From Bathymodiolus brooksi (Eukaryota > Mollusca > Bivalvia > Mytilida > Modiolidae): a stretch of 64,000 bases of DNA. The DNA lies in assembly GCA_963680875.1 (NCBI GenBank), contig OY804588.1:93242233-93306232 (forward strand), in the 5' to 3' direction. Both the position numbers and the translations under genes were made by a program. The notes below the pieces were generated by a model. The model saw only the letters and a program-made list of their open reading frames with translations. It made no database searches and was not told the DNA's origin. Below are positions 1 through 31,527 of this stretch, piece after piece (the first letter of the stretch is position 1; the number at the start of each line of letters is the position of its first letter).

Positions 1-2341
1 CCAAACTTGTCAGAAATGTTCACTGGATGGTCCTTTACCAGATTTGTGTTTTTGGTGCTGATTTGAAATCCAACATGGCTGCCAGGGTCCATAATGTGTT
101 CTCATACGCTGAAATTTTAAAAATCTTCTTGTCAGAAACCACTAGGTCAATTGAATTGTGACTTTGCAGGAATGATCATTGGGTGGTCCTGTACTAAACT
201 TGTGAATCGTTTGCCGATCGGAAATTCAAGATGGCCGCCATGACTCGACTTAGTTTAACATAGGACCCTATGGGAATTTCACATTTTCATCTTTTTTTCT
301 GAAACCACAAAACAGATTTGAACCAAACTTGGCAGAAATGTTCATTGGATGGTCATATACAAGATTTTTGTTTTTGGCGCTGATCGGAAATCCAACATGG
401 CTGCCAGGGCCCATAATGCGTTCTGATTGGTCGAAATTTTAAAAATCTTCTTGTTAGAAACCACTAAGCCAATTGAATTGTGACTTTGCAGGAATGATCA
501 TTGGGTGGTCCTGTACTAAACTTGTGAATCGTTTGCCGATCGGAAATTCAAGATGGCCGCCATGACTCGACTTAGTTTAACATAGGACCCTATGGGAATT
601 TCACATTTTCATCTTTTTTTCTGAAACCACAAAACAGATTTGAATCAAACTTGGCAGAAATGTTCATTGGATGGTCATATACAAGATTCTTTTTTTTGGC
701 GCTGATCGGAAATCCAACATGACTGCCAGGGCCCATAATGTGTTCTCATTGGTTGAAATTTTAAAAATCTTCTTGTTAGAAACCACTAAGCCAATTGAAT
801 TGTGACTTTGCAGGAATGATCATTGGGTGGTCCTGTACTAAACTTGTGAATCGTTTGCCGATCGGAAATTCAAGATGGCCACCATGACTCGACTTAGTTT
901 AACATTGGACCCTATGGGAATTTCACATTTTCATCTTTTTTTCTGAAACCACGAAACAGATTTGAATCAAACTTGGCAGAAATGTTCATTGGATGGTCAT
1001 ATACAAGAATTTTGTTTTTGGTGCTGATCGGAAATCCAACATGGCTGCCAGGGCCCATAATGTGTTCTGATTGGTTGAAATTTAAAAAATCTTCTTGTTA
1101 GAAACCACTAAGCCAATTGAATTGTGACTTTGCAGGAATGATCATTGGGTGATCCTGTACTAAACTTGTGAATCGTTTGCCAATCGGAAATTCAAGATGG
1201 CCACCATGACTCGACTTAGTTTAACATTGGACCCTATGGGAATTTCACATTTTCATCTTTTTTTCTGAAACCACAAAACAGATTTGAACCATACTTGGCA
1301 GAAATGTTCATTGGATGGTCATATACAAGATTTGTGTTTTTGGTGCTGATCGGAAATCCAACATGGCTGCCAGGGCCTATAATGTGTTCTGATTGGTCGA
1401 AATTTAAAAAATCTTCTTGTTAGAAACCACTAAGCCAATTGAATTGTGGCTTTGCAGGAATGATCATTGGGTGGTCCTGTACTAAACTTGTGAATCGTTT
1501 GCTGATCGGAAATTCAAGATGGCCGCCATGACTCGACTTAATTTTAACATAGGACCCTATGGAAAAAATGTTTAAAAGTCTTCTCCTCTGAAACCAGTAA
1601 GTCAGTTTAAAGCAAACATGGGATGAATGGTCCTTAGGTGGTCAACTTTCAAAATTATGTCCTGTGACCCCGACCTCCATCCAAGATGGCAACCATCAGC
1701 GAACATAGTTTTAACATAGGACCCTATGGGAAATATATTTAAAAATCTTCTTCTCTGAAACCAGTAAGCCAATTTAAAGCAAACATGGCATGGATGGTTC
1801 TTAAGTGGTCAATTTTCAAAATTGTGTCCAGTGACCCTGAACTCAATCCAAGATGGCCACCTTCAGCAGACATACTGTAGTTTTAACATAGGACCCTATG
1901 GGAAAAAATGTTTTAAAATCTTCTCCTCTGAAACTAGTAAGCCAATATAGCAAACATGTCATCGATGGTCCTTAGGTGGTCAACTTCCAAAATTGTGTTC
2001 AGTGATCCCGATCTCGGTTCAAAATGGCCGCCGTCAGCAGACATAGTTTTAACATAGGACCCTATGGGAAAATTGTTTAAAAGTCTTCTCTTCTGAAACC
2101 AGTCAGCCAATTTAAAGCAAACATGGCATGGATGGTCCTTGGGTAGTATACTTTCAAAATTGTGTCCGGTGACCACGACCTCCATCCAAGATGGCTGCCA
2201 TGAGCAGACATAGTTTTAACATAGAACCCTTTGGCAGTATGGGATTTGAATAGTAACTTAGATGTATTCAGCATGCAGACATTCTTAAGAGGACTTATTT
2301 ATGTCAGGTGAGCGATACAGGCTCACCTGAGCCTCTAGTTT
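1..2341 (+). repeat. HINE/pearl-like repeat element, left end outside window
   Basis: Tandem units of about 160-170 bp, each carrying a 'gatggtc' block, a 'caagatggc' block and a 'taggaccctatggga' block. The tail at about 2305-2341 has the sequence CAGGTGAGCGATACAGG followed by a 7-bp-stem hairpin (2319-2334) and a T-rich end. Nearly the same unit order recurs at 12236-15007, so this is a second copy of one family. The head lies left of the window. Short frames inside it are not genes. Confidence 0.8.
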
Positions 2342-4168
2342 AATTTTTGATACTTTTCGTCTTATATTTCAAAAACTATTTCGAGATAGATGTTAAGTTT
2401 AAATTGCAAAAATGTGCAGCATATCAAGATCTACCTACCCTGCAATTTTGAAGTAAATCCCATTACCCATTTTGGAGTTATTGCCCTTTTAGGCCATGTG
2501 AGCTATTGCCATCACTTTTCGTCGGTCCGTCAACATTTCACATTTTAATCTTCTCCTCAGAAACCACTGGGCCAATTGCAACCAAACTTTGGTGGACTGG
2601 TCCTTGGATGGCCCCCTTCCAAAATTGTGTCTGGTGATCCCGAATTCCAACCAAGATGGCCACCAAGCTAAAAATAGAAAAAAGGGGGATGAAGTTTTAA
2701 TTGTCCATTGCTGCTTTAGTATAAGTCAAAATGAGCTCAAATTTTAACTGCAGCTAACGTGGCAAGGAGTAGTTTAACATATGTTCGGGGTTTTTTGTGT
2801 GAAATTTTTCTTTCAGCCGATTTATACCGATTATGCAAATTAGGCATATTTTGATAAAAGATCACATTTAAATCTTCTCCTCTGAAACCGCTGAACCAAA
2901 TTAAACTAAACCTGGCAAGGATGGTTCCTGGGTTGATCCCTTTCAAAATTATGTCTGATAGCCATGCCCTCCATCCAAGATGGCTGCCATTACTAAAAAT
3001 AGAAATTTCTTCAAATGGCCAAAACTGCTTTATTATAAGCCAGAATGTGTCCAAATTTGAACTGTATAAGCATAATGATGAGCTTTTTAACATATATTAT
3101 GGGATTTTTTATGAACTTTGAACTTTTGCAAATTAGGCATAAATAAGCAAAAAATCATTTAAAAATCTTCTTGTTAGAAACCACTTGGCCAATTTCAACC
3201 AAACTTTGTCTGAATGATCCTTAGGTGTTCCCCTTTCAAAATTGTGTCCATCAGTGCCGTCCTGTATCCAAGATGGCCACCATTACTAAAAATAGAAATT
3301 TCTTCAAATGGCCAAAACTGCTCTATTTTAAGCCAGAATGTGCCCAAATTTGAACTGTATAAGCATAATGATGAGCTTTTTAACATATATTATGGGATTT
3401 TTTTATGAACTTTGAACTTTTGCCGATTTTGACCGATTATGCAAATTAGAAAAAAGGGGGGATGAAATTTAAAAAAAAATCTTCTCCTCTGAAACTACTG
3501 AGCCAATCTCAACCAAACTTTGCTGAAATGATCCTTGGGTGGTTCTCTTCCAAAATTGTTTCCGGCATTTCAGAACACTGACCAAGATGGCCACCACAGC
3601 CAAACTTAATTTGACATAGGACCCTATGGGAAATTCCCATAAAAATCTTCTTGTCTTGAAACCATTTGCTCAATAAGAACAAAATTTTGATGAAATAGTC
3701 ATTGGATGGTTCTCTTCCAAAATTGGGTCCGGCGGTTCGGCCCTTCGACCAAGATGGCCCCCACAGCCGAACTTAGCTTAACATAGGACCCTATGGGAAA
3801 TTCACATAAAAATCTTCTTGTCTGGAACCAGTTGCTCAATTGGAACCAAACTTTGATAAAATAGTCATTGGATGGTCCTCTTCCAAAATTGTGTCTGATG
3901 GTCCTGCCCTCTGACCAAGATGGCTGCACAGCTGTACTTAGTTTAACATAGGACCCTATGGGAAATTCACATAAAAACCATCTTGTCTGGAACCAGTAGC
4001 TCAATTAGAACCAAACTTTGATGGAATAGTCATTGGATGGTCCTCTTCCAAAATTGTGTCCGGCAGTCACGCTCTCCCACCAAGATGGCTGCCACAGTGC
4101 AGTTGCGTTTTTATTGAAAGCAGCTTTGATCCAGGTGAGCGATTACAGGCTCCTGGGAGCCTCTTGTT
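2342..4168 (+). repeat. HINE/pearl-like element, related to 21025-23414
   Basis: This starts inside the internal repeat without a proper head, has a truncated second head near 2494 (GGCCATGTGAGCTATTGCC), then runs through diverged ~165-bp units to a tail with hairpin AGGCTCCTGGGAGCCT at 4147-4162. Unit order matches 21560-23414 almost base for base. It abuts the first exon-bearing duplication unit at about 4169. Confidence 0.75.
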
Positions 4169-4285
4169 ATTTTTGCCTGCTTTAAATTTCTATAATATAC
4201 AAAAATATAATTTTTGTTTGTTAATGAATTGATATGGAAAATAAACAATGTATATAAATAACATATTATATTTTCCTATTTTTAG

Positions 4286-4318
4286 CTCTGCACCATTTGC
4301 TGGTGAAATAGCTAGAAG
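4286..4318 (+). CDS. 33-nt mini-exon, repeat unit 1
   Basis: The acceptor is TTTTCCTATTTTTAG and the donor is GTAATC. The exon encodes [10 protein letters not shown] and contributes AG to the next codon (Ser). It is identical in sequence to the exon at 4892. Confidence 0.75.
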
Positions 4319-7300
4319 GTAATCATAATAGTTACAGAAAAAATTATTAGAATTGTGAAAAATAATTTATTAAAATAGATGAGTTCCAAACAATATTAGA
4401 ATAAAATGGAAAAAGCACCAAAAAAATACCACACTTTTAGAACAGTACAAAAATCTAGAAGAAAAACCGTATAAAGAGGCAAAATTGATATCCCTAACTC
4501 ACAAATACATGACTGGTCGGTCACTTTTCTGGCTTGATACAGTCACTTCAGTAAAGTGGCAGGGTCAAACCTCCCTCTTAGTGAAATGATAAGGTCATAC
4601 AAGTACTTTCCACATTTGAGTAAAATGCCAATCCTCACATAAAGCCTTTTATTTTTTTACATCAATGAAAATGAAAATTCAGTAGGAAGTACCAACACAC
4701 TACAAAAAGTCTAATGGAAATTTAGCATTAATTGTTAATTATATAATTAACTAAATACAATTAATTTTATTTTTATTTTTGCCTGCTTTAAATTTCTATA
4801 ATATACAAAAATATAATTTTTGTTTTTTAATGAATTGATATGAAAAATAAACAATGTATTTAAATAACATATTATATTTTCCTATTTTTAGCTCTGCACC
4901 ATTTGCTGGTGAAATAGCTAGAAGGTAATCATAATAGTTACAGAAAAAATTAATAAATTATTAGAATTGTGAAAAATAATTTATTAAAATGATAAGGTCA
5001 TACAAGTACTTTGCACATTGGAGTGAAATGCCAACCCTAACATATAAGCCATGTTTTTTGTTGGTTTTTTTTGTGAGACATCGATGAAAGTGAAACGTCA
5101 TTGGGAAATATGAACACACCATAAAAAGTTAAATGGAAATTTAGCATTAATTGTTAATTAACTAAATACAATTAATTTTATTTATTTTTTTGCCTGCTTT
5201 AAATTTCTATAATATTAAATGTATATATTTATACCCCCCACTGGTTTCACCATGTCCGTCTGTCCGTCCGTCTGGAGATAAATCCTATGTTGTACGATAA
5301 CTTGAGTTGTGTTTCTTAGAATCTTTTAAAATTTTATCAGCTGTTTACTGGTGAAGAGAGGAGGATCCCTTTCTTTTTTTGCCGATTTTCACTTTTGCCG
5401 TTCCAGAGTTATTGGACTTGATATGACGGAAAATAGGATTTTTACCCTATGTCATATGATAACTTGAGTAGTATTTCTCAGAATGTTTTGAAATTTTATC
5501 AGCAGCTTACCGGTAAAGAGAGGAGGATCCCTTTCATTTTTGACGATTTTCACTTTTACCGTTCCAGAGTTATTGGACTTGATTTGACGGAAAATAGGAT
5601 TTTTACCCTTTGTCGTATGATAACTTGAGTAGTGTTTCTCAGAATGTTTTGAAATTTTATCAGCAGCTTACCGGTGAAGAGACGAGGATCCCTTTCATTT
5701 TTGCCATTCCAGAGTTATTGAACTTGATATGACGGAAAATAGGATTTTTACCCTATGTCGTATGATAACTTGAGTAGTGTTTCTCAGAATGTTTTGAAAT
5801 TATACCCCCCACAACAAAGTTGTAGGGGGGTATACTGGTTTCACCATGTCCGTCCGTCCGTCCGTCTGTAGACAAATCCTATGTCGTACGATAACTTGAG
5901 TTGTGTTTCTTAGAATCTTTTAAAATTTTATCAGCTGTTTACTGGTGAAGAGAGGAGGATCCCTTTCATTTTTGACGATTTTCAATTTTGCCGTTCCAGA
6001 GTTATTGGACTTGATATGAAGGAAAATAGGATTTTTACTTTATGTCATATGATAACTTGAGTAGTGTTTCTCATAATGTTTTGAAATTTTATCAGCAGCT
6101 TACCGGTGAAGAGACGTGGATCCCTTTCATTTTTGACGATTTTCACTTTTGCCGTTCCAGAGTTATTGGACTTGATATGACGGAAAATATGATTTGTACC
6201 CTTTGTCGTATGATAACTTGAGTAGTGTTTCTCAGAATGTTTTGAAATTTTATCAGCAGCTTACCGGTGAAGAGACGAGGATCCCTTTCATTTTTGACGA
6301 TTTTTACTTTTGCCGTTCCAGAATTATTGAACTTGATATGACGGAAAATAGAATTTTTACCCTATGTCGTATGATAACTTGAGTAGTGTTTCTCAGAATG
6401 TTTTGAAATTTTATCAGCAGCTTACCGGTGAAGAGAGGTGGATCCCTTTCATTTTTGACGATTTACACTTTTCCGTTCCAGAGTTATTGGACTTGATATG
6501 ACGGAAAATAGGATTTTTACCCTTTGTCGTATGATAACTTGAGTAGTGTTTCTCAGAATGTTTTGAAATTTTATCAGCAGCTTACAGGTGAAGAGAGGAT
6601 GGTCCCTTTCAGTTTTGGTCAGAACAATCAGTAATGTTTTGGTTATGGAAATAGGTTGGACAGATGTGGGGAGTGGGGGGTATATCTTATTGAGCTGTTC
6701 TCACAGTAATACTAGTTTTGTTTGTTATGAATTGTTATAAAAAATAAACATATATAAACAACATATATATTTTCCTATTTTTAGCGCTGCACCCTATGCT
6801 GGTGATTTAGCTAAAAGGTAATGATGATATTTAATATGTAGAAAATTTTAAAATACAGAATCTTTAAAAATAAGATATTGAAATGGATTACTTCCAACTT
6901 TTAAGAACAAATATTGAGAGATATTTTTTTTAATGCAGTGTTTCAGTAGATTTTTGTTTTACATACACTGATTTATTTTTTATTTATTTTTTTTATTAGT
7001 TCACCTGGAACAAAGGTCCAGGTGAACTATTGCCATCACTTGGCGTCCGTCGTCTGTCGTCTGTAAACTTTTCACATTTCAAGCTTCTTCTCCGAAACCA
7101 CTGGGCCGATTGGAACCAAACTTAGCAGGAATGTTCCTTGGATGGTCCTCTACAAAGTTTTTCGTTCCAGTCGGATATTCAATATGGCTGCCAGGGCCAA
7201 TAATATGCTCTGATTGGCTGAAATTTCAAAGATCTTCTTCTCTGAAACTAATGAACTGACTGAACCCAAACTGTAAATGAATGATCATTGGAAGGTCCTC

Positions 7301-10300
7301 TACAAAGTTTCAGTTTTTTATGCCGATCGGAAATCCAAGATGGCCGCCATCGCAGGACATACATTAACATTGGACCCTATGGGAAAATGTTCAAATGCCT
7401 TCTTCTCAGAAACTACAAATATGATTAAAGCCAAACTGTACACAAATGTTCATTGGATGGTCCTCTACAAACTTTACGTTTTTTGTTCCGGTATGAAATT
7501 CAAAATGGCGGCTACGGCAGGACTTAGTTTAACATTGGACCCTATGGGAAAAATGTTTCAAAACGCTTCTTCTCTGAAACCACTAGGACAGTTGAAACCA
7601 AACTGCCCAGGAATGATCATTGGAAGGTCCTCTACAAAGTTTCTGTTTTTTATGCCGATCGGAAATCCAAGATGGCCGCCACCGCAGGACATAGATTAAC
7701 ATTGGACCCTATGGGAAAATATTCAAATGTATTCTTCTCAGAAACTACAAATATGATTAAAGCCAAACTGTACACAAATGTTCATTGGATGGTCCTCTAC
7801 AAACTTTACGTTTTTTGTTCCGGTATGAAATTCAAAATGGCGGCTACGGCAGGACTTAGTTTAACATTGGACCCTATGGGGAAAATGTTTCAAAACGCTT
7901 CTTCTGAAAGCACTAGGACAGTTGAAACCAAACTGCCCAGGAATGATCATTGGAAGGTCCTCTACAAATTTTATGTTTTTTATGCCAATCGGAAATCCAA
8001 GATGGCCACCACCGAAATACATAGAATAACATTGGACCCTATGGGAAAATGTTCAAATGCCTTCTTCTCAGAAACTACAAATATTATTAAAGCCAAACTG
8101 TACATGAATGTTCATTGGATGGTCCTCTACAAACTTTACGTTTTTTGTTCCGGTATGAAATTCAAAATGGCGGCTACGACAGGACTTTGTTTAACATTGG
8201 ACTCTATGGGGAAAATGTTTCAAAACGCTTCTTCTCTGAAACCACTAGGACAGTTGAAACCAAACTGCCCAGGAATGATCATTGGAAGGTCCTCTACAAA
8301 TTTTTTGTTTTTTATGCCGATCGGAAATCCAAGATGGCCGCCACCGCAATACATAGATTAACATTGGACCCTATGGGAAAATGTTCAAATGCCTTCTTCT
8401 CAGAAACTACAAATATTATTAAAGTCAAACTGTACATGAATGTTCATTGGATGGTCCTCTACAAACTTTACGTTTTTTGTTCCGATATGAAATTCAAAAT
8501 GGCGGCTACGACAGGACTTTGTTTAACATTGGACTCTATGGGGAAAATGTTTCAAAACGCTTCTTCTCTGAAACCACTAGGACAGTTGAAACCAAACTGC
8601 CCAGGAATGATCATTGGAAGGTCCTCTACAAATTTTATGTTTTTTATGCCGATCGGAAATCCAAGATGGCCGCCACCACAGGACATAGATTAACATTGGA
8701 CCCTATGGGAAAATGTTCAAATGCCTTCTTCTCAGAAACTACAAATATTATTAAAGCCAAACTGTACATGAATGTTCATTGGATGGTCCTCTACAAACTT
8801 TACGTTTTTTGTTCCGGTATGAAATTCAAAATGGCGGCTACGGCAGGACTTAGTTTAACATTGGACCCTATGGGAAAAATGTTTCAAAACGCTTCTTCTC
8901 TGAAACCACTTGGACAATTGAAACCAAACTTCCCAGGAATAATTATTGGAAGGCCCTCTACAAAATTTTTGTTTTTTATGTCGATCGGAAATCCAAGATG
9001 GTCGCCACCGCAATACATAGATTAACATTGGACCCTATGGGGAAATGTTCAAATGCCTTCTTCTCAGAAACTACAAATATGATTAAAGCCAAACTGTACA
9101 TGAATGTTCATTGGATGGTCCTCTACAAACTTTACGTTTTTTGTTCCGATATGAAATTCAAAATGGCGGCTACGGCAGGACTTAGTTTAACATTGGACCC
9201 TATGGGGAAAATGTTTCAAAACGCTTCTTCTCTGAAACCACTAGGACAATTGAAACCAAACTGCCCAGGAATGATCATTGGAAGGTTCTCTACAAATTTT
9301 ATGTTTTTTATGCCGATCGGAAATCCAAGATGGCCGCCACCGCAATACATAGATTAACATTGGACCCTATGGGAAAATGTTCAAATGCCTTCTTCTCAGA
9401 AACTACAAATATTATTAAAGCCAAACTGTACATGAATGTTCATTGGATGGTCCTCTACAAACTTTACATTTTTTGTTCCGATATGAAATTCAAAATGGCG
9501 GCTACGGCAGGACTTAGTTTAACATTGGACCCTATGGGGAAAATGTTTCAAAACGCTTCTTCTCTGAAACCACTAGGACAGTTGAAACCAAACTGCCCAG
9601 GAATGATCATTGGAAGGTCCTCTACAATTTTTTTGTTTTTTATGCCGATCGGAAATCCAAGATGGCTGCCACCACAGGTCATAGTATTAACACAGGACCA
9701 TATCGGGAAAATACAGAAATATCTTCTTCTCGGAAGCTATTGCACTGATTGAACCTAAACTGTGCATCAATCTTTGGAAGGTCCTTTACAAACTTTGTGT
9801 TTTTTATGTTGATCGTAATTCCAAGATGACTACCACTGCAGGACATAGTTTTTACATAGGACCAATTGGTTTTTTTTATAACCAGGTGAACGATACAGGC
9901 TCTTGAGAGCCTCTGGTTTTGTATATATGAAAATTAAAAATAGAAAATAAATTGATAGTAGAAAGCCTGAACTCAATATAAAAAGAAAAAAAAATGCATC
10001 TGTTGCAATTCAGCTATTAAAAAAATTGTGCAAATTTAAATACATGTAGAAGTACATTAAATTTCTGGATTTTTAAAAAATTTTTTTTTGGCTAAATTTC
10101 CAAATCGCTATGTATATTATATATGTTCATAAATTACTATTTAAAATAAACAACATATATATTTTCATATTTTTAGCGCTGCACCATATGCTGCAGATGC
10201 TGCAAAAAGGTACGAAATTATTGCATATTGACAAGAAATTTTAATTTGATTTAATTTCTTGGATGTTAAATTTGAAAGATAATAAGTTTGATAATTTGAT

Positions 10301-13300
10301 TGAATACATAATTGTTTTTCATGTTGTAAACAACCCTTTCATTACCATTATTTTCCTGTTGTAAACAACCCTTTCTAATCAAATATTATTTTCATGTTGT
10401 AAACAACTCTTTCTAATCAAATATTATTTTCATGTTGTAAACAACCCTTTCATTACTGTTTAATCAAATCAAACATTGTAAACAATATTAATGCCTTTCA
10501 TTAAAATATCATTAAAAAAATCAAATATCAGGAAAGTCTTTACATTTCTGTTGAATAGTATGGATGTCATTTGTTCTAAAAATGGGTTTTTAATTTCAAT
10601 GAAAATTTTTTTGGGGTTTTAGCAAAAATTAAGTGAAAAATGATGCATTTGATATTATTATTGTTATTGTCTATAAATAATCATATTTCAATCTTGTCTG
10701 AAACCACTTGATCAAATTGTACCAAACTTGGTTCCTTCTCACTCAAAATCTTATAATCTCATCTTAGAAACCATTGTAGACTATCAATGAATGGTCTTTT
10801 GTTAAGTTTGTTCCTATAAGGAAGACTATAACTTTTCCCATTTTAAGAATTTTGTATATATTTCAAATCCAAGATTGCCACCTCCATGGGAGAAAAGTGT
10901 AACATAGGTGTCAAAAAAATCTAAAACAATTGACCTGTTTGAATCCACATTTGTCACTAATGATCGTAATAAGCGGATTAATGATTTTGTTTGCGATGAC
11001 AATTTAAGATCCAATATGGCCACCATCATGAAAAAATATTATGCAGAAATTAATATCATTTGTCACTTCCATACTTATTATACATTGTATCTAGTCCTGC
11101 CATTATAACCTTCCTTTAAATCAAAATATTGACAACCATTCTCTTGCATGATTCTGTAAAAAAAATATGAGGTCAAATATTTTTATTTAGATAGGAATGA
11201 AATTGAGTATGATTGAAGGTGTTATTATTGATTGTAATATTTCTAACATTTACAGTGCAGCACCATACATTATACAGGGAATGGCACAAGGGTACGTCTT
11301 ATATATTGTTTTACCTATTGTCAGTTTTAACAGTATACTGGCATATATTATATATATACAGAGATTTAGCCAGGATTTTGATGAATAAACAAGAATATAA
11401 TGAGCTTAATCTTATAATCAGTTACGTTGCCTTATTGGTTAGTAGTGGAGATTGAAAACCTCCTAGGATGGGAACATACTCTGCAAATTAACAACCAACT
11501 GATAAAACATAACATTGCCACTATTTTGATCTCAATACCACACAAATTGTAATACCCCCCCCCCCCTTTTTGAAATATTACTGTGCTTTGGTCTAATACC
11601 ACACAAATTGTAAATACCCCCTCCCCCACCCTTTTTGAAATGTTACTGTGCTTTGGTCTAATACCACAACAATTGTAATAACTCATATTTGTGTAGTCTT
11701 CAGCAGAAAAAAAAATTCTACCAGTGGGAATGGTCCAACTTCTATCTAGATTCTTTGTATAGAACACACTTCAAAAACTGAAGCAAGTTGTAAAATAAAT
11801 AATTATTTCTCAGACCTTGCAACAATTGGAATAAAAATACTGTAGTTATTTTTTTTAATTGCAGACACGTGTCTGTTTGTAAATAGTTCTATAAATAGAA
11901 TGCAATTGTTACCCGGATGCTGATCAATATATAAAAAAAAACTTATATGCGTCCTCGTGCAGTGCATTTCAGCGAATTGAATGCCCATCCTTTGCATATA
12001 AATGAAATATAAAATATGAGAACTAAGATTTCATTTCACAGAAATGAGAATAAATACATCAAAAGTTCGTTTGGTTAAAAGTAGCTTCGGTGGATTGCAA
12101 ACTCCTGTTGATCGCGCCATTTTTTAGCTCACCTGGCCATAGGCCATGTGAGCTTTTGTCATGGGTAAGCGTCCGTCCGTCCGTTAGCTTTTCACATTTA
12201 AATCTTTTTCTCTGAAACCGCTGAACAGAAATCAGCCAAACTTGCCAGAAATGTTCACTGGATGGTCCTTTACCAGATTTGTGTTTTTGGTGCTGATTTG
12301 AAATCCAACATGGCTGCCAGGGTCCATAATGTGTTCTCATAGGCTGAAATTTTAAAAATCTTCTTGTCAGAAACCACTAAGTCAATTGAATTGTGACTTT
12401 GCAGGAATGATCATTGGGTGGTCCTGTACTAAACTTGTGAATCGTTTGCCGATCGGAAATTCAAGATGGCCGCCATGACTCGACTTAGTTTAACATAGGA
12501 CCCTATGGGAATTTCACATTTTCATCTTTTTAGCTCACCTGGCCATAGGCCATGTGAGCTTTTGTCATGGGTAAGCGTCCGTCGTCCGTCCGTCCGTTAG
12601 CTTTTCACATTTAAATCTTCTTCTCTGAAACCGCTGAACAGAAATCAGCCAAACTTGCCAGAAATGTTCACTGGATGGTCCTCTACCAGATTTGTGTTTT
12701 TGGTGCTGATTTGAAATCCAACATGGCTGCCAGGGTCCATAATGTGTTCTCATTGGCTGAAATTTTAAAAATCTTCTTGTCAGAAACCACTAAGTCAATT
12801 GAATTGTGACTTTGCAGGAATGAACATTGGGTGGTCCTGTACTAAAATTGTGAATCGTTTGCCGATCGGAAATTCAAGATGGCCACCATGACTCGACTTA
12901 GTTTAACATTGGACCCTATGGGAATTTCACATTTTCATCTTTTTTTCTGAAACCACAAAACAGATTTGAACCAAACTTGGCAGAAATGTTCATTGGATGG
13001 TCATATACAAGATTTTTGTTTTTGGCGCTGATCGGAAATCCAACATGGCTGCCAGGGCCCATAATGTGTTCTGATTGGTTGAAATTTTAAAAATCTTCTT
13101 GTTAGAAACCACTAAGCCAATTGAATTGTGACTTTGCAGGAATGATCATTGGGTGGTCCTGTAATAAACTTGTGAATCGTTTGCCGATCGGAAATTCAAG
13201 ATGGCCGCCATGACTCGACTTAGTTTAACATAGGACCCTATGGGAATTTCACATTTTCATCTTTTTTTCTGAAACCACAAAACAGATTTGAATCAAACTT

Positions 13301-16300
13301 GGCAGAAATGTTCATTGGATGGTCATATACAAGATTTATGTTTTTGGCGCTGATCGGAAATCCAACATGGCTGCCAGGGCCCAAAATGTGTTCTGATTGG
13401 TTGAAATTTTAAAAATCTTCTTGTTAGAAACCACTAAGCCAATTGAATTGTGACTTTGCAGGAATGATCATTGGGTGGTCCTGTACTAAACTTGTGAATC
13501 GTTTGCCGATCGGAAATTCAAGATGGCCGCCATGACTCGACTTAGTTTAACATTGAACCCTATGGGAATTTCACATTTTCATCTTTTTTTCTGAAACCAC
13601 AAAACAGATTTGAATCAAACTTGGCAGAAATGTTCATTGGATGGTCATATACAAGATTTTTGTTTTTGGCGATGATCGGAAATCCAACATGGCTGCCAGG
13701 GCCCATAATGTGTTCTGATTGGTCGAAATTTAAAAAATCTTCTTGTTAGAAACCACTAAGCCAATTGAATTGTGACTTTGCAGGAATGATCATTGGGTGG
13801 TCCTGTACTAAACTTGTGAATCGTTTGCTGATCGGAAATTCAAGATGGCCACCATGACTCGACTTAATTTTAACATTGGACCCTATGGAAAAAATGTTTA
13901 AAAGTCTTCTCCTCTGAAACCAGTAAGTCAGTTTAAAGCAAACATGGGATGAATGGTCCTTAGGTGGTCAACTTTCAAAATTATGTCCTGTGACCCCGAC
14001 CTCCATCCAAGATGGCAACCATCAGCGAACATAGTTTTAACATAGGACCCTATGGGAAATATATTTAAAAATCTTCTTCTCTGAAACCAGTAAGCCAATT
14101 TAAAGCAAACATGGCATGGATGGTCCTTAAGTGGTCAATTTTCAAAATTGTGTCCAGTGACCCTGACCTCCATCCAAGATGGCCACCTTCAGCAGACATA
14201 CTGTAGTTTTAACATAGGGCCCTATGGGAAAAAATGTTTTAAAATCTTCTCCTCTGAAACTAGTAAGCCAATATAGCAAACATGTCATCGATGGTCTTTA
14301 GGTGGTCAACTTCCAAAATTGTGTTCAGTGATCCCGATCTCGATTCAAAATGGCTGCCATCAGCAGACATAGTTTTAACATAGGACCCTATGGGAAATAT
14401 ATTTAAAAATCTTCTTCTCTGAAACCAGTAAGCCAATTTAAAGCAAACATGGCATGGATGGTCCTTAAGTGGTCAATTTTCAAAATTGTGTCCAGTGACC
14501 CTGACCTCCATCCAAGATGGCCACCTTCAGCAGACATACTGTAGTTTTAACATAGGGCCCTATGGGAAAAAATGTTTTAAAATCTTCTCCTCTGAAACTA
14601 GTAAGCCAATATAGCAAACATGTCATCGATGGTCTTTAGGTGGTCAACTTCCAAAATTGTGTTCAGTGATCCCGATCTCGATTCAAAATGGCTGCCATCA
14701 GCAGACATAGTTTTAACATAGGACCCTATGGGAAAATTGTTTAAAAGTCTTCTCTTCTGAAACCAGTCAGCCAATTTAAAGCAAACATGGCATGGATGGT
14801 CCTTGGGTAGTATACTTTCAAAATTGTGTCCGGTGACCACGACCTCCATCCAAGATGGCTGCCATGAGCAGACATAGTTTTAACATAGAACCCTATGGCA
14901 GTATGGGATTTGAATAGTAACTTAGATGTATTCAGCATGCAGACATTCTTAAGAGGACTTATTTATGTCAGGTGAGCGATGCAGGCTCACCTGAGCCTCT
15001 AGTTTTTATTTTAGTTTCTTCAAAGGACGTGTATACACATCCTTGGTTTCTTTAATCAAAGTTATGACTTTTCGAGAAAATCACTTTCAAAATACTTAAT
15101 GGATACGATAGATTTCAATAAACATGATGTCGACATTTTCATAGATTTGGCAAAAATAGTTCGTTATGGCAGACATTGAGACGAATCGTGCAACGAATGA
15201 GGATTACATTAATTATATATTTTAACGGCAACTTTCCCTATGCAATATTGCGCCCATATGACGATTACAAAAATATGTCCACTTTAAATACATACTGTGG
15301 CATTTTGAGTACATGTCATAACTATAAAAAAATTATTATCGTTGATTGAATTCTTTGTCCAGGTCAGGTGAGATCAAAGATTACGCAATCAAAACAAAAA
15401 TTATATAATCCGTCAGCGAGGTATAGTCGCAATAAAGTCTGTTAGTGACTTACGGCATGTCATTTGTTTTTTTCTTGGTACTCCGGTTACCTCCCCTGAT
15501 AAAATAGCTGTTATTTTATAACAGAAATATGGTTGAAAGTAGCATTAAACGTCCATAAACACAAAACACACAAACAATATTTCGAAAAAAAGCAAAAATA
15601 TTATATATACATTGAAATCTGTCTAAACTGATCCTCCTCGGGACCAACTTTTGTATTCAAAGTAGACATTGGGACTTTTATTTAAAGCAGTTTATGCTGG
15701 ACTCCATTTTATTCAGGGTTCGGTTTATACAGGTTTCACAGTACATGTAAATAAAATATAATAAAGTTCTATTGAGAAAGGTCACAAGACTGAAGCATTG
15801 TTATATTAATAGATTCCAATTTTTTTTTAATATAAGAGGCTTGGTATATACATGTATACACATATTTATTATGATTGTCTTAGGGTGGTAACTTTAAGGT
15901 AAGCAGAACTATATTTTGACATAACATACTTTTAATTGCCAAATGGGGTGCTAATAATGTCTCATTTCTTTTAATCATTCTATCATTGTATTAAAACATG
16001 ATTTTTAAAGTGATCCTTAACAAGGACCCCTGGGATCAGGTAATAATTATCAATGAGCTTATGATGTTAAAACCATATATATCATTTACCCAGTATATTT
16101 TGAAGTATAGTGTTCAGAATTTAAGAAGACACTTTTATGCATATATATTTTCTTTAATCTTAAAAAAATTATTTGTTTATGAACTTGATTTAAATTAATT
16201 GTGTATTAGAGAATTATTCTATTGTTGACATTATGATATGTAAATGAATTTTCGTTTGTTTATTTTTCTCCATCTTAATAAATAAAAAATGCAGTTGTAT

Positions 16301-19300
16301 TTCAAATCAGAGTATTGCCTTTAAATATATATGAAATAACCCCAAAAAAAACATAATATTTGAAAAATCAACCGTCACGATATTTCTGAAATATTGTTGA
16401 AAGTGGCGTTAAAACACCATCAATCTATCAATCTAATCTGAAAAATCAGCAAGAATGTTATTACATGTATCTGTGGAAAATTTGATTTGTTTACAGAACA
16501 AAATCGTATTTATCAAATCAATATGGAGCACAGCGTGGGTATGTTAATTAAATACTATATTTGAGTTTTCTAAGGTACATTTGTATTTCATGGACTAACT
16601 ATGTTGAAATTCTTATCAAACAGACATGTTTAATATACAATTGAGAAGAACAAAAATTTGATTGATATAGTTCTTAACACATTTTGTATGTGTGTGTCTA
16701 TAAGCACAATCAGATTTTACATCAATTACAGGAAAAGAGATGATATTTACATGTGGTTATAAGGAACAATTAATACAATACGTTCTTCTTGTAGTTGAAT
16801 CATCTTTTTGATGAAATTAATTTATTAAATTTGTTCACAATACGATATAGCTGAAATTACTGCTTAAAGTTGGCATAAAACACCAATCAGTAATCTTTTG
16901 AAGTGAAAAAGATGCAATGATGAATTTAGTCCATGAAATACAGTAATTTTGTTTCAAATTAAAAGTTGAATGAGAATTCAGGTTTCATTAACAACCTTTG
17001 CAGACATCAATAAAGTGGTAAAGGGAAAAAAACTGGCATAGATTAAAATTATTATATTCCCTTTGATAAATGGCTTATGCTTTTTAAATTTACCTTTTAT
17101 TAATTTATATTTTACCATGCTTTACCTGGCAGGGTTGTAAAATGCATGAATTTGTTGAATTTTAATATTCGTCATTCAATTTAATTTGAAATTTGTGAAT
17201 TGTGAAATGCCATATATAACATAGTTCTTTGATTTTCATTCCAAAAATGTTAGCTGCGGAACCGTAGATCTTATGATCTTTTTTTATGTGACCATATGGT
17301 TACATATATATGGTCACAAAAAAAAACATAAGAACTACAGTTTCGTAACTACAAAAATGAGAAGTGTATGCAAAGCAAATTTATTGGCTATGATAAAAAA
17401 AGAATTTGATTTTTTTTGCAATATGCTGCTATTTTGGACTATTGTTTAATTCAAGGAGAACTTAGAGGAATGGAAATCAAAGACTTGTTAATTTATATAT
17501 ATATATATGGCATTTTAATTATACTAATCAGCTAATGTTGACAGCCAGAGTTCTAAGTCTTTGTCTTACAGATATCTATTGTTATGCCCCCGCGACTATT
17601 GGTCGGGGGGGGGGGGGCATATTGTTTTACCCCTGTCCGTTCGTCACACTTAGTATGCATAGTTTATCCGGCTAACTCCTCCTACAGTTTTTGAGCTACA
17701 GCTTTAATATTGTGTAGGATGTTTATACACATAATGGAGGTGTGCATGTCCACAGGATTTTGATTTTCTTCAAATATTCTCAAAATGACAGGTAGTTGGA
17801 CTTGGTCATTTTTTTCGTACTAGCTGCATAAAGGGAACATGGTTTGTCCGGCTAACTCCTCCTACAGTTTTAGAGCTACAGCTTTAATATGTTGCAGGAT
17901 GTTTATACACATAATGGAGGTGTGCATGTCCACAGGATTTTGATTTTCATCAAATATTCTCAAAATGACAGGTAGTTGGACTTAGTCATTTTGTTGGTCC
18001 GTCCAGATATAGATACATTATTTGTCCGGCTATCTCCTTCTACAGTTTTGGAGCTACAGCTTTAATATTTTGTAGGATGTTTATACACATAATGGAGGTA
18101 TGCATGTCCACAGGATTTTGATGGTCAGGCGGGGGCATCATTTGTGTCTTACAGACACACTTCATTTTTTAAAAATCACTCCTAACAAAACAACTTTGTC
18201 CATAATTATCAAGTGTGGGGGCATACTTCTTTTCTAGTTATCTCTCTAGACTTGTAATGCTAGTTACTATACTACTGTTTATATAGTTAAACAGTCATTT
18301 TTTGTTTGAGCCACATTCTCTGTACATGTACTAACTATAATCAAGAGACATCACAATATCTTGTACTGTGTCTTTTGTTCTGTAGCTTTCATTTCTTGAG
18401 TGTGCTTAAGATGTAAGATAAACAAACTTGTCCATTTTCTAGGTTATTTTGCTAGAAAAATAAAATACAATTATATTAAGGATATTGATTTAACTAAATT
18501 TCCGTTACCAGTAGTTATTGCCGATTTGCATTTGAAAATTTGTTAGAATTCATAAGTAAAATTTATAAAGTTATATATTCAGTTATATTTTTAACAAAAA
18601 TTTTAATTATCCCCTCGCCAACGAAGTTGTGAAGGGATATAGTAACGCTACCTTCCGTCCTTCCGTACCTCCGTCACATCCTTGTGAACACTCTAGGATC
18701 AACATCCTTCAATGGATTTTGACCAAACTTGGTACATATTTAGTCCTTAAGAGAATCTGGAACCCTATTGATTTTCAAGGTCATAGGTCAAGGTCACCAG
18801 ATCAAATTTTTACCACATAACATCCTTGTGAACACTCTAAAATCAACATCCTTCAATGGATTTTGACTAAACTTGGTACATATTTAGTCCTTAGAAGAGT
18901 CTGGAACCCTATTATTTTCAAGGTCAAAGGTCAAGGTCACTGGGTAAATTTGTTACCATGTAACATCCTTGTGAACACTCTAGAATCAACATCCTTCAAT
19001 GGATTTTGACCAAACTTGGTACATACATAGTCCTTATGAGAGTCTGGAACTCTATTGATTTTCAAGGTCAAAGGTCAAGGGGTCAAAATTTTTACAGCAT
19101 AACATCCTGTGAACACTCTAGAATCAAGATCCTTCAATGGATTTTGACCAAACTTGGTACATACTTAGACCTTAAGAGAATCTGGAACCCTATTGATTTT
19201 CAAGGTTCAAAGGTCAAGGTCACAGGGTCTAATTTTTAGGCGAGGGGATACGCCAAGCTTTGCATTGCCCTTGTTTTCAAAGAAAATAAATCAGGTAAAA

Positions 19301-20490
19301 AATTTAAAACAGATTAAATTTCCTTTAAATTGTTATGAATTATAGAGAATTTGTAGTTTTTTTAATTGAACTTATTCATAATATTAACAAATTTATTTTT
19401 TCTTTCTGGATACACAGTCTTTTTTTCTGTATTTTTCTTGCTTGTGTGTGTGTGTTGCATTTCTTTTCACATATTTTCTCTTTTGGTTGTGTATATATAT
19501 ATATTTTGTTCAACAATATTTGTCTTAAATAGGAAATCTTAGAATTTTGTGTTTTTTTAATTGTGTTTTTATTGCTTAATAATAAAAACTACTTTTATTA
19601 TTTTGTTTGTTTGTTTACATTATAATCAATGTTATATCATTTATATAAAGCATCTTGTTTTAAGGAAGAATGTTTTTTTAACAAATAATTAATGTGTTGC
19701 ATCTTTCATTCTGTCATGCCATCACTGTCCGATTTTTATTTCACAGCATTTTATCTGAAATAAGGAAAAAATTTAATAAAAAAAATAGATCTGTATTTGT
19801 ATTTATAAATACTTATTGTGCAACAAAGGGGGTGGGGACAATATTATATGTTTATTTTATGATGAATATAATTCAACCTCCATTTATAATGAAGGGAGGT
19901 ATTAGTGATTAAAGTGGTCAAATGGATCATTTGTTTAACCTTTCAAAAACGGGTTTTAGATTCACACCCAGCTGCGACCTGTGTTGGTGTATACCATATG
20001 TTAAAGAATGTTTACCTCATAATTATTCCGAGGGGCTGTCGCAGTTGTGATCGTATGGTAGTTGGATTTACAACTACCTGTACAATCAGTGCCTATCATC
20101 ACTAAAGTTGTGAGTTTGAACCCTATTCATGACAAGTTGTAATCGATGCAACATTATGTGATAAAATTTGTCAGTGACTTGTGACCGGTTGGTGGGTACT
20201 CTGGTTTCCTCCACCAATAAAACTGACTGCCACTATATAGCTGAAATATTGTTGAAAGTGGCATTAAACACTGTCAACTAACCAACCAACCATACTTATT
20301 CCGTCTCCAGGTTATAGCTGAAAATTTGTTGAAACTGGTCATAAGCAAATTTTAATAATAAAAAATAAACTTCTTTTTGCTAATATATTATGATTATTAT
20401 TTTTACAGACGTCCAGGATCAGCTGGCCCTGCAAGTGTACCGAGAATTCCCGACAGACCATCTATACCATCGAGACCAAATCTATTATAG
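4286..20490 (+). CDS. 3' part of an unidentified multi-exon gene with repeated mini-exons
   Basis: Exons read 4286-4318, 4892-4924, 6785-6817, 10177-10209, 11256-11291, 16497-16538 and 20409-20490, all on the plus strand, each preceded by a pyrimidine-rich AG and followed by GT. All internal exons are multiples of 3 and all begin one base short of a full codon, so they join in one frame. The product repeats an 11-residue unit ([10 protein letters not shown] twice, [20 protein letters not shown], then [11 protein letters not shown], with Ser or Gly at the junctions). After that come [13 protein letters not shown] and a Pro/Arg-rich end with PSIPSR (PxxPxR, SH3-ligand-like) and PASVPR (PxxxPR), finishing in IPSRPNLL and a TAG stop. 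5' exons are outside the window. I do not recognise the family. Any exon could be alternative. The joint phase and repeat conservation argue strongly for a real gene. Confidence 0.75.
4892..4924 (+). CDS. 33-nt mini-exon, repeat unit 2
   Basis: This is a tandem duplicate of the 4286 exon, together with more than 100 bp of each flanking intron. Sequence and splice sites are unchanged, so the duplication is recent or the exon is conserved. Confidence 0.75.
5230..6718 (+). repeat. Poly-C palindrome repeat element (family B), copy 1
   Basis: The first head is at 5230 (TATACCCCCC, with the second palindrome arm deleted) and a complete second head is at 5801 (TATACCCCCC...GGGGGGTATA). Units of about 161 bp contain GATAACTTGAGTAGTGTTTC and GGTGAAGAGA. 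The tail GGGGGGTATATC is followed by hairpin TGAGCTGTTCTCA (6691-6703) and ACTAGTTTT. The element interrupts the intron of the mini-exon gene. Confidence 0.8.
6785..6817 (+). CDS. 33-nt mini-exon, repeat unit 3
   Basis: It encodes [10 protein letters not shown] in the same phase. Its upstream intron copy is split by the repeat element at 5230-6718. The branch/acceptor region resembles units 1 and 2 (TTTTCCTATTTTTAG). Confidence 0.75.
6998..9920 (+). repeat. HINE/pearl-like element with 332-bp array (family A), copy 1
   Basis: The head palindrome is at 6998-7028 (AGTTCACCTGG...CCAGGTGAACT), followed by GTCGTCTG-rich DNA. About seven 332-bp units follow, each made of two ~166-bp halves (one with AAAATGGCGGCTACGG, one with CCAAGATGGCCGCC). 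The tail has CCAGGTGAACGATACAGG and hairpin AGGCTCTTGAGAGCCT (9897-9912). Open frames of 119-229 codons here arise from the repeat and shift frame each unit, because 332 is not a multiple of 3. Confidence 0.85.
10177..10209 (+). CDS. 33-nt mini-exon, repeat unit 4
   Basis: It encodes [10 protein letters not shown] in the same phase, with acceptor TTTTCATATTTTTAG and donor GTACGA. It is separated from unit 3 by the large array at 6998-9920. Confidence 0.75.
10210..11255 (+). other. Intron between mini-exons 4 and 5
   Basis: It contains four units of a ~50-bp repeat with TGTTGTAAACAACCCTTTC (about 10313-10470) and an old, degraded family-A-like fragment at about 10675-11035 (TCTGAAACCACTTGATC, AATATGGCCACCATCATG). 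No coding sequence was recognised. Confidence 0.6.
11256..11291 (+). CDS. 36-nt mini-exon, degenerate repeat unit 5
   Basis: It encodes [11 protein letters not shown] and ends GG, giving Gly with the next exon. It is one codon longer than the other units. The acceptor is TTTCTAACATTTACAG and the donor GTACGT. Confidence 0.7.
11292..12126 (+). other. Intron segment with ~80-bp tandem repeat
   Basis: At about 11520-11690 a unit containing AATACCACACAAATTGTAA, a C-tract and TTACTGTGCTTTGGTC repeats two to three times. The rest is AT-rich sequence with no recognisable feature. Confidence 0.55.
12126..15007 (+). repeat. HINE/pearl-like element, copy closely related to 1-2341
   Basis: The first head at 12126 and second head at 12532 both read AGCTCACCTGGCC...GGCCATGTGAGCT, followed by (CCGTC)n. 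There is one shared tail with hairpin AGGCTCACCTGAGCCT near 14982-14998. The units match those at 1-2341. The second head sits exactly in a T-run of the first element's repeat unit (CATCTTTTT). Confidence 0.85.
15008..15883 (+). other. Intron with decayed SINE and MITE
   Basis: 15385-15575 resembles the SINE core found elsewhere in the window (GAAATATGGTTGAAAGTAGC). 15612-15745 is a diverged copy of the CAGTGAAACCTGTC mariner-type MITE in inverse orientation (GTTTATACAGGTTTCACAG). No coding sequence was seen. Confidence 0.5.
15884..15898 (+). CDS. Candidate 15-nt cassette micro-exon
   Basis: GGTGGTAACTTTAAG lies between TGATTGTCTTAG and GTAAGC. It is a multiple of 3, compatible with the phase of the neighbouring exons (11291 to 16497), and would add G-V-V-T-L with an Arg junction. 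The evidence is only splice-site quality and phase. Confidence 0.25.
15899..17582 (+). other. Intron sequence around the 42-nt exon, with a hairpin MITE-like repeat
   Basis: A SINE tail is present at about 16377-16430 (GAAATATTGTTGAAAGTGG), as is a decayed one near 16855. At 17240-17359 an imperfect inverted repeat has arms with GACCATAT/ATATGGTC and CTTATG/CATAAG, resembling a small MITE. The rest is AT-rich and featureless. Confidence 0.45.
16497..16538 (+). CDS. 42-nt exon
   Basis: It encodes [13 protein letters not shown] in the same phase, with acceptor TTTGTTTACAG and donor GTATGT. It has no 11-mer similarity and marks the end of the repeat domain. Confidence 0.65.
17583..18170 (+). 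repeat. ATGCCCCCGC palindrome repeat element (family D)
   Basis: The head pairs TATGCCCCCGCGAC with a G-tract arm ending GGGGCATA. About three ~175-bp units contain CTCCTCCTACAGTTTT and CATAATGGAGGTGTGCATG. The tail GGCGGGGGCATCATTT is followed by hairpin GTGTCTTACAGACAC and a T-run. A further GTGGGGGCATAC at 18216 may be a remnant of another copy. Confidence 0.75.
18608..19277 (+). repeat. TATCCCCTCGCC palindrome repeat element (family C), copy 1
   Basis: The head is TATCCCCTCGCC with an imperfect return arm AAGGGATATAG, then CCGTCC-rich DNA. Four ~165-bp units carry ATGGATTTTGACCAAACTTG and TTTTCAAGGTCAAAGGTCAA. The tail is GGCGAGGGGATACGCC and CCCTTGTTTT. Copies are at 45909 and 63526. 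Confidence 0.8.
19278..20034 (+). other. Intron, no recognisable feature
   Basis: AT-rich, T-run-rich DNA upstream of the SINE and the terminal exon. I see no conserved coding or RNA signature. Confidence 0.4.
20035..20285 (+). repeat. tRNA-derived SINE with conserved 3' core
   Basis: A B-box-like GAGTTTGAACCCT lies in the head. The 3' core has CTCCACCAATAAAACTGAC, TATAGCTGAAATATTGTTG and AAAGTGGCATTAAACAC, then CAACC repeats. The same element occurs at 27105-27320, 30495-30745 and 50665-50790, with fragments elsewhere. It may belong to the MetaSINE type known from bivalves, but I could not compare. Confidence 0.7.
20409..20490 (+). CDS. Terminal coding exon, Pro/Arg-rich tail
   Basis: The acceptor is TTATTATTTTTACAG. 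Read in the incoming phase the exon gives 26 residues and a TAG at 20488-20490. It contains [12 protein letters not shown] and [11 protein letters not shown]. Two SH3-ligand-like patterns are visible, but that function is inferred. Confidence 0.65.
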
Positions 20491-29513: not shown

Positions 29514-29849
29514 ATATATAGCCTACGAAATTGTGATTACCCGTGGGTACTTGATTGGAGACCCCTCATAACAAGTTGTTGATCATTAGGGGCTACTGGA
29601 GGGGGGTGTATTTGGTGCATTATATATACCAGTTGACTCCAGAATCACCATGCACTGCAGAAGAGGTTGTACCTCAATTATACATGTAGGTCCTATCAAT
29701 ATACCAAGGGATTCATATGTGTGTCTGATCACCCCTTTTGTATCTTACAATTTTTCTGTGCTTCAACTTATAGCACATAAATTAAGGAATACAAATGGAT
29801 ATTTGTACATGTACCATACATATGAGCTGGGAATTCATAAACATCTTAC
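29514..29849 (-). other. DNA downstream of adiponectin-receptor exon 2
   Basis: This would be the next intron on the minus strand. I searched it for transmembrane coding sequence and saw none. Confidence 0.4.
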
Positions 29850-30135
29850 CTAACAAATGTGTCCATATGTTGCCAGTCTCTGTATGTATTCTAAATATAG
29901 ATTTAAAACATTCTCTAAATGAATTTGTTGGCATCCAATGTCCCTTGTGTAAAAAGCTATTATCTTGTAGCCAGTCAGGGAGATGATGGTGATGGACTAC
30001 CCGCCACCCTGCCTCCCACACTCGTTTCACGAACTCTTCTGCCTGCTCAGCAGCCCTACATGGTCCTGGCAGAAAGTCTAAACAAGAAGTTTTCTTTTCT
30101 ATCTCATTATCATCAGATCCTATTGATACGGTTTT
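29850..30135 (-). CDS. AdipoR: Adiponectin receptor-like exon 2
   Basis: 286 nt, read from 30135 down to 29850. The acceptor on the minus strand is ATTAAATAG and the in-frame TAG just upstream confirms that the exon begins at 30135. It ends with one base of a Gly codon, which matches the conserved THLLG. Confidence 0.85.
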
Positions 30136-31527
30136 CTATTTAATGACGAAGACTAAATATAGATACATTTTATAGATACATTTAATGACAAAGACTAAAT
30201 ATAGATACATTTTATAGATACATTTAATGATAAAGACTAAATATAGATACATTTAATGACAAAGACTAAATATAGATACATTTTATAGATACATTTAATG
30301 ACAAAGACTAAATATAGATACATTTAATGACAAAGACTAAATATAGATACATTTTATAGATACATTTAATGACAAAGACTAAATATAGATACATTTTATA
30401 GATACATTTAATGACAAAGACTAAATATAGATACATTTTACATTGGACAAGATATTTTAACATATTGGTAGACAATACAATATCTGCTTGTAATAAGGGA
30501 TCATCGTGGTCGTGATCGTATGGTACTTGGATTTACAACTACCTGTGCAATCAGTGCCTATCACCACTAAAGTTGTGAGTTCAAACCCTGTTCATAACAA
30601 GGTGTACTCGATAAAACATTATGATTATGTGATAAAGTTTGTCAGTGACTTGCGACAGGTCAGTGTTTTTCTCCGGTTTCCTCCACCAATAAAACTGACC
30701 ACCACGATATAACTGAAATATTGTTGAAAGTGGTGTTCCCCTAACCCCCCCCCCCCCCCCCCTATATAAACCGTTTACATTGTATACATGTACGTGTATT
30801 TATTTATCATTTCTCACACAACAAATGCAAGTATCTGAGATTAGGATATGAGGCACAGAGAAGCTTATTTCTTCTTGGTGTAATTTTTTTACCGCCATAC
30901 ATTATGAACATGTTCTTTGTATCAATAATTATGTCATGACTTATTCTTGCCCTGAATTTAGCTGAAATACTGCTAGCTGAACGTTGAGCAAAAATCAATC
31001 AATCAATCAATCAATCAATACCAGTAATCAACTTTGTGATATAAACAAGAAAGTAAACTTTAGTAGTTAACTTTATGTAAAGGACTTCAACAGCAATGAA
31101 ATTTTCCTCAGATTTAAAATATATATATTTTACTTTTACAAGACACATTTTAGATGAACTAAAAGATCTGGAAAAAAAACGAAAATGTAAAGGTACATGA
31201 AATTGGCTCATACTAAATTTCAACACAACATTACTTTAATTTTAAATAAAATGTTAACTGTTATTTTTTTCTTAAATCTTACTTCCTGTTTCATTCTACA
31301 TCGTATATAATAAACATTTTTTTTTTTTTTTTCATCAATACTCCTACCTTCTTTCGTTTAATAACCTTTCCGTTCTCTGATCTTTGTGCAGGCTCTTTGA
31401 TATGTGAGTTATTAAAACTAAGATCTTCAGAAATGTCAGATTCGTCGGCTAAGTCAATATCAGGTGTTGACAGAGGCTGAGAAACAATAGGAGATGGTTC
31501 TACCACTGCTGTATCTATGGAAGCCAT
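29850..31527 (-). CDS. AdipoR: Adiponectin receptor-like protein (PAQR family), exons 1-2 of a partial gene
   Basis: The minus-strand gene starts with ATG at 31527. Exon 1 (31527-31348, 60 codons, donor AAG|GTAGGA) and exon 2 (30135-29850, donor TTAG|GTAAGA) join in phase 0 to give 155 residues of cytosolic N-terminus. Exon 2 has the family's diagnostic pre-membrane block: [25 protein letters not shown], then [19 protein letters not shown]. In animals these receptors are seven-helix ceramidase-like membrane proteins that bind zinc and signal to lipid metabolism. The membrane core with its zinc ligands is not in the recognised exons. The usual GHRPPM is GHWMPT here, suggesting a divergent paralogue. 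It is either a gene whose 3' exons lie far downstream (lower coordinates or beyond the window) or a truncated duplicate. Confidence 0.8.
30136..30445 (-). repeat. Minisatellite at the exon 2 acceptor
   Basis: Units of 41 bp and a shortened 28-bp variant (TTTAATGACAAAGACTAAAT, AGATACATTTTATAGATAC) repeat about eight to nine times and run directly into the splice acceptor of the receptor exon. Confidence 0.8.
30495..31018 (+). repeat. SINE copy plus a second SINE-like remnant
   Basis: 30495-30745 is a full-looking copy of the SINE at 20035 (GAGTTCAAACCCT, GATATAACTGAAATATTG), ending in a C-tract. 30780-31018 is a different remnant ending in GAATTTAGCTGAAATACTGC and a (CAAT)n tail. Both lie in the receptor intron. 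Confidence 0.6.
31348..31527 (-). CDS. AdipoR: Adiponectin receptor-like exon 1
   Basis: It starts [15 protein letters not shown], is acidic in the middle ([13 protein letters not shown]) and basic at the end (KVIKRKK). It ends in phase 0 before GTAGGA. The N-terminus of this family is poorly conserved, so assignment rests on phase and position. Confidence 0.65.

Follow-up and report, generated by a model that had tools for sequence, protein, structure and literature searches.

Dynamin pinches off membrane vesicles and belongs to the membrane machinery that animals have conserved most strongly. According to PMC11329700, amphiphysin binds dynamin-1 at the PSRPNR motif, and endophilin binding is tuned by the spliced tail of the proline-rich domain (PRD) next to it; PMC6773865 reports that several SH3 domains must engage adjacent motifs of the dynamin PRD simultaneously. 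Here we analyse a stretch of 64,000 nucleotides from the mussel Bathymodiolus brooksi (assembly GCA_963680875.1, contig OY804588.1, C17:93242233-93306232; hereafter the window), in which the locus under study is the 3' end of a mussel dynamin gene, mytilid judging by similarity. We consider it highly probable that this 3' end carries at least 12 optional micro-exons, whose encoded insert tunes the spacing and valence of SH3 partners mainly through block splicing, and whose copy number shifts by local duplication. Alternative splicing of the PRD is already known in kind, and the array is a mussel-specific form of it. Its isoforms are present in sequence databases under dynamin names, and, judged by title or abstract opening, no publication on the array was among the papers listed by literature searches whose coverage excludes most subscription journals.

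Positions are given relative to the window, with negative values lying upstream of it, and the contig position is the value plus 93242232. The 160 kb upstream of the window, fetched from the same 2.0-Gb assembly, contains reading frames that resemble dynamin, and a tblastn search with a human dynamin-1 probe recovered its exons between -129330 and -39782, in order and all on the + strand. In Pfam, the protein assembled without the array matches Dynamin_M (E = 2.4e-101), Dynamin_N (1.5e-38), GED (2.5e-23) and PH (1.5e-09), all above cut-off, and these domains follow the classical dynamin order of Dynamin_N GTPase, Dynamin_M stalk, PH and GED. A C-terminal PRD is present by sequence as well, with SH3-type motifs (..PPPPLPNRPGPGGSTVPSRPAPTIPNRPAPT.. 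and a terminal cluster) of putative binding capacity. Over 444 residues of the GTPase and stalk, identity reaches 98.4% to the protein record P0001, 93.5% to the Mytilus record P0002 and 81-83% to scallop, oyster, clam and sea-hare records (four molluscs), and the best PDB match of P0001 is dynamin-1.

The initial annotation had assigned the exons to an unrecognised gene of a mollusc. That it is a mollusc gene is borne out, but the gene is a classical dynamin, as its exon order, its Pfam domains and the dynamin names of its relatives show. An unrecognised gene family is therefore ruled out, and so is a non-genic repeat, since relatives contain the same exon peptides. Neither exon 1 nor a short linker exon following the stalk could be placed in the upstream sequence, and the last two PRD exons are the last of those found. 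When the C-terminal 98 residues were used alone, a protein search gave no match at E <= 1 (83 candidates, similar-length proteins only) and Pfam gave no result; the 132-residue insert reached a best Pfam E of 0.94, and Rfam returned 0 matches over the window at gathering thresholds.

These last two PRD exons join in frame, either directly (PPIPA-RPGSAGP) or via all micro-exons. The intron of 47,276 bases between -26868 and 20409 holds the array of at least 12 micro-exons, each 18-42 nt long and symmetric in phase 2, of which six lie inside the window and six upstream, from -12914 to -965 (Table 1). The five mini-exons first proposed between 4286 and 11291 proved real, with AG/GT borders, a single phase (2), lengths of 33, 33, 33, 33 and 36 nt and 11-residue units; their common phase means that the split codon gives two bases on the left and one on the right. 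Spliced to 16497-16538 and 20409-20490, they read open to a TAG stop. Inclusion of all micro-exons adds 396 nt, or 132 residues, in an open frame, and the frame is equally open when all are skipped. The proposed in-frame gain or loss of units holds, and all the micro-exons are phase 2 on both sides.

As a control, the intron was scanned on both strands with splice-site matrices derived from constitutive dynamin exons only, for candidate exons of 9-75 nt whose phase-2 frame is open. At a score >= 12, there were 16 candidates on the + strand versus 4 on the minus strand, and the 16 include all 12 proposed micro-exons, which had been chosen by homology and by eye before the scan. The remaining + strand candidates were not adopted: -11481..-11461 (score 17.4) lies inside a repeat judged mobile-type by eye, 17756 and 17936 (score >= 12) lie inside the tandem array 17658-18122, and 15839 (score >= 12) was left out without a separate test. 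A pattern search of the intron revealed no 15-nt exon that would encode the VIPLR piece of P0001.

Evidence for inclusion and skipping comes from relatives' protein records. Used as a query, the C-terminal 291 residues yielded 854 proteins at E <= 0.01, and the best 120 of these 854 were listed. The top 43 comprise 41 Mytilus records (P0002-P0012, P0014-P0043) and two 'ena' records (P0001 and P0013), and the 43 vary in the sequence that follows PPIPA. P0001 (938 residues) and P0013 (915 residues) each have their whole frame within a short contig, of 3,128 and 3,198 bases respectively, and are therefore probably cDNA-like; both contain four 11-mers, and they differ in the TKSF unit. All three 11-mers are found in 30 of the 41 Mytilus records, none in 11, and one or two in 0/41. 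Splicing of single 11-mers in or out, as first envisaged, is not supported by this all-or-none pattern, which extends to 41/41 records. FNQSGR, ASIYLAQQATKG and a 14-residue unit (0, 1 or 2 copies) vary independently of the 11-mers, and the 41 records represent 17 kinds: one that skips every unit (4 records), one with FNQSGR alone (4 records) and a further 15. Two of them, P0031 and P0035, stop after the third 11-mer and lack the terminal exon.

Relative to Mytilus P0002, the residues kept are, in order, 5/6, 9/12, 7/10 (6785), 9/10 (10177), 9/12 (11256) and 13/14 (16497), and for the -5593 and 4286 types they range from 6/10 to 7/10. With the insert of P0001 as the query, 32 proteins were retrieved at E <= 0.01 among 1507 candidates, and all of them are Mytilus records or P0001/P0013.

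The claim that each of the five exons sits on a duplicated cassette stands for four of them, where the alignments extend beyond the exon, and falls for 11256, which has only the exon motif in common with the other four. The 4286 and 4892 cassettes, which represent a recent tandem duplication, match across 4164-4393 / 4770-5005 (221 identities, 7 mismatches, 10 gap positions). The 4892 and 6785 cassettes match across 4810-4991 / 6708-6885 (145 identities, 28 mismatches, 14 gap positions), and the 6785 and 10177 cassettes across 6754-6851 / 10146-10244 (80 identities, 17 mismatches, 3 gap positions). The last 31 intronic bases in front of the latter two exons (6754-6784 versus 10146-10176) show one difference and the 33-nt exons themselves seven in an alignment counted by eye, a near-identity that may reflect a shared splicing signal or gene conversion. 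Furthermore, the upstream half contains 94-97% copies of the 4286/4892 cassettes among the matches listed, and a 1.6-kb block (-1335..296 and 10921..12531, 98.3% identical) carries both copies of the 11256 exon. The number of 11-mer units is 7 in B. brooksi, 4 in the closely related P0001/P0013 and 3 in Mytilus, so the suggested length evolution is supported by a count that varies across species, and the locus seems to offer a clear example of a protein whose length evolves through tandem duplication of a micro-exon cassette.

The micro-exon array is most likely a spacer that is spliced in or out between two SH3-binding clusters of dynamin. The insert of 0 to 132 residues lies between SH3-type clusters, with PLPNRP, VPSRP and TIPNRP upstream and the terminal-exon cluster downstream. 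Because each micro-exon starts and ends in the same phase, the array could be skipped whole or included in part with the frame intact. The insert would then set distance and valence for SH3 partners such as amphiphysin and endophilin, chiefly through block splicing, and local duplication would change how many 11-mer cassettes each species has. Since the spliced tail of dynamin-1 tunes endophilin binding and multiple SH3 domains bind the PRD together, spacing should matter, and the natural series of one protein with 0, 3, 4 or 7 units between the motif clusters would make the control of recruitment by SH3 spacing directly testable. A bolder formulation, which we advance with considerable doubt, sees the last PRD intron of mussels as a cassette factory, where a duplicated unit gives an 11-residue amphipathic repeat that is switched as a block and gives a fixed fission machine a module which acts on membranes or spaces partners and whose length can evolve.

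Several points weigh against the spacer reading. The spacing role is one that we infer, the Mytilus isoforms are database records, some of them clusters of up to 21 members, and inclusion or skipping in B. brooksi is deduced from sequence. The 5' splice sites of the four identical 33-nt exons and of the 30-nt exon score 4.0, compared with 5.8 for the weakest constitutive site, which fits optional exons but poor exons too. In addition, a selection test on the four identical 33-nt copies found 0/6 variable sites in the exon (p = 0.37), and because these exons are identical and lack a selection signal, the newest copies may be neutral in the B. brooksi genome. Finally, alleles placed in tandem could inflate the copy number, though the two halves differ in structure.

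An alternative function for the 11-mer block is that of a splice-switched amphipathic helix that binds lipid, as in exchangeable apolipoproteins, and provides a second membrane contact besides the PH domain. We consider this unlikely as the explanation of the block; a lipid-binding role is possible, if weakly supported. The best PDB match of the 132-residue insert is apolipoprotein A-IV (E = 0.0031, or 0.068 with the 98-residue piece), and the controls reach best E values of 0.1 and 0.59 (column-permuted) and 0.25 (shuffled), yet the match contains no single significant stretch. Similarly, the helical moment exceeds that of shuffles (p < 0.03) in 6 of 9 units from the window, Mytilus and P0001, which are near relatives of each other, but the other three units are either not unusual (p = 0.13 and 0.17) or below shuffles (p = 0.90), and for the array as a whole the moment, compared with column permutations, has p = 0.083. 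Proline recurs in each 11-mer, which also argues against a helix, and in the AlphaFold2 model of P0001, whose whole-model mean of 51.3 is too poor for use, residues 745-938 have pLDDT < 50, and the short helices at 852-877 are predicted with no higher confidence.

An assembly artefact, in which two haplotypes of different array length were placed in tandem, is about as improbable as an account of the extra copies in the window. The 98.3% identity of the 1.6-kb block speaks for it, as this value falls within the range of mussel heterozygosity. However, the 6785 and 10177 exons have no copy in the upstream half, and both halves belong to one 96-Mb contig. Moreover, among the 40 of 301 candidates scored genome-wide, there are two long matches to the 11256 region, each of them within the dynamin locus, and the other 39 matches listed are fragments of 30-75 bases, including the end of the second copy. 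Lastly, it is very hard to credit that the micro-exons are neutral passengers, that is, young duplicated pseudo-exons rarely or never spliced and open only through youth, because, even though the four identical copies are recent, show no selection signal, have weak 5' splice sites and lie in a region rich in tandem and dispersed repeats, the micro-exon peptides recur with unchanged order and breaks in Mytilus records and P0001/P0013, with the residues kept relative to P0002 as given above.

Table 1. Exons at the 3' end of the B. brooksi dynamin gene, in window coordinates.
Feature	Position	Strand	Length and phase	Remarks
PRD exon	-27035..-26868	+	ends phase 2	last PRD exon but one found
Micro-exon	-12914..-12897	+	18 nt	YNQSGR
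Micro-exon	-6126..-6091	+	36 nt	ASIFLAQQTAKG
Micro-exon	-5593..-5564	+	30 nt	SAPYGDIAR
Micro-exon	-4991..-4959	+	33 nt	peptide identical to 4286/4892
Micro-exon	-2993..-2961	+	33 nt	peptide identical to 4286/4892
Micro-exon	-1000..-965	+	36 nt	12 residues; copy of 11256 exon
Micro-exon	4286..4318	+	33 nt, phase 2-2	11-residue unit; AG/GT borders and frame; one of four identical exon copies (with -4991..-4959, -2993..-2961 and 4892..4924)
Micro-exon	4892..4924	+	33 nt, phase 2-2	tandem copy of 4286 cassette, 606 bases downstream
Micro-exon	6785..6817	+	33 nt, phase 2-2	identical peptide in P0001 and P0013
Micro-exon	10177..10209	+	33 nt, phase 2-2	identical peptide in P0001 and P0013; related 10-residue form in Mytilus
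Micro-exon	11256..11291	+	36 nt, phase 2-2	counterpart AAPFIAQGIAQG in Mytilus P0002; second copy at -1000..-965
Micro-exon	16497..16538	+	42 nt, phase 2-2	14 residues; top-scoring candidate of the intron; 13/14 residues match Mytilus P0002
Terminal coding exon of dynamin	20409..20490	+		22/26 residues match Mytilus P0002

Other exons of the gene exist in several versions. The PH-domain exon has three alternatives (-72727..-72621, -70985..-70873 and -70578..-70469; 107, 113 and 110 nt), which would be mutually exclusive by frame because each runs from phase 0 to 2, and the Mytilus records P0002, P0003 and P0004 have one version apiece. Such a three-way choice in the membrane-binding domain of dynamin may outweigh the micro-exon array in importance. 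A stalk exon is present in two versions (-112913..-112846 and about -112790..-112712, the second acceptor position being approximate), presumably at the place where vertebrate dynamins have their 10a/10b pair. Minisatellites occur in or near the gene at -9791..-7151, -25129..-13904, -54013..-43409 and -154159..-131068, with units of 33, 46, 48 and 53 bp in 80 to 437 copies; the 33-bp unit is as long as an 11-mer exon but, by eye, does not resemble the exons in sequence. Tandem arrays at 1-1562, 7234-9712, 12603-13888 and 51202-57288 have units of 322 or 332 bp in up to 18 copies and apparently form one repeat family.

Elsewhere in the window, minus-strand frames at 29785-30135 and 31294-31533 resemble what we take to be an adiponectin receptor, the first with a Pfam HlyIII match (E = 0.0012) below cut-off, and a + strand frame at 58312-58887 contains a TROVE (Ro60-type) domain (E = 6.8e-06). 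Broken minus-strand frames at 38236-39410 and 44280-48989 presumably derive from LINE-type retrotransposons; one has a PHD finger, and another that was tested has no Pfam match.

At the PRD junction that carries the array, 47 records from named molluscs outside Mytilus, drawn from the best 120 of 854, were compared. Like the mussel, other bivalve dynamins have an in-frame insert at this position, in 13 of the 16 bivalve species tabulated, and it is optional in five of these 13 (Ostrea edulis, Crassostrea virginica, Ylistrum, Dreissena and Mercenaria), which have records both with and without it. These inserts differ from the mussel array in being short, one or two in number, of a different sequence and free of 11-mer repeats. 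Oysters have KYDV..DRKTAQKG and WNVGQAVGSAYMRN (WNVG..MRN), with both, either or none in C. virginica records, scallops have TKPSFRG or a close form, and Ruditapes, Mercenaria, Mya and Dreissena share a distinct insert of 13 residues. No insert was seen in records of Pinctada, Sinanodonta and Solemya, of 10 gastropod genera (0/10) or of one octopus (0/1), absences that are soft because 90% clustering hides isoforms. P0055, which is outside the species count, has a longer, different insert at the junction (..QAEQAMIGHAFSVASNPQTLAYGKQLMSSAAANSSIRR..). The likeliest history is an old optional micro-exon site of bivalves that was enlarged in mussels via cassette duplication, and the short inserts of other bivalves are possible starting material for the mussel array.

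Among the known systems, the closest is that of Mytilus, where the Mytilus galloprovincialis dynamin-1-like isoforms X1-X12 and other Mytilus records share with B. brooksi the gene, the junction, the peptide order and the include/skip variants. They have three 11-mers, where B. brooksi has seven units and carries the 36-nt exon twice, and some Mytilus records double the TKSY unit. The xA and xB forms of dynamin-1 also have a PRD tail spliced beside a PSRPN motif, with a shift in partner choice, but according to PMC11329700 these are two alternative tails of 20 and 7 residues, whereas the mussel has an internal array of symmetric micro-exons. An alternative end of this type does not describe the mussel gene, since 39 of the 41 Mytilus records end in PSRPNLL and vary upstream of it, P0031 and P0035 ending earlier. 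In dynamin-2, short in-frame exons likewise vary a single dynamin gene, with optional 12b and 13b, mutually exclusive 10a/10b and 12b used in muscle; according to PMC9652393 these are single exons without repeats, and 12b encodes 10 residues between the PH domain and the stalk. Finally, the micro-exon genes of schistosomes share with the mussel locus a large number of tiny symmetric exons that are used variably while the frame is kept, a trait found here as symmetry in B. brooksi and as include/skip variants in Mytilus records. By the definition in PMC4350168, the mussel gene is not of this kind, with 396 nt of micro-exons against at least 903 codons: the coding region of a schistosome micro-exon gene consists mostly of micro-exons and its products are found in secretions and glands, whereas in mussels a small optional insert has been added to a conserved GTPase.

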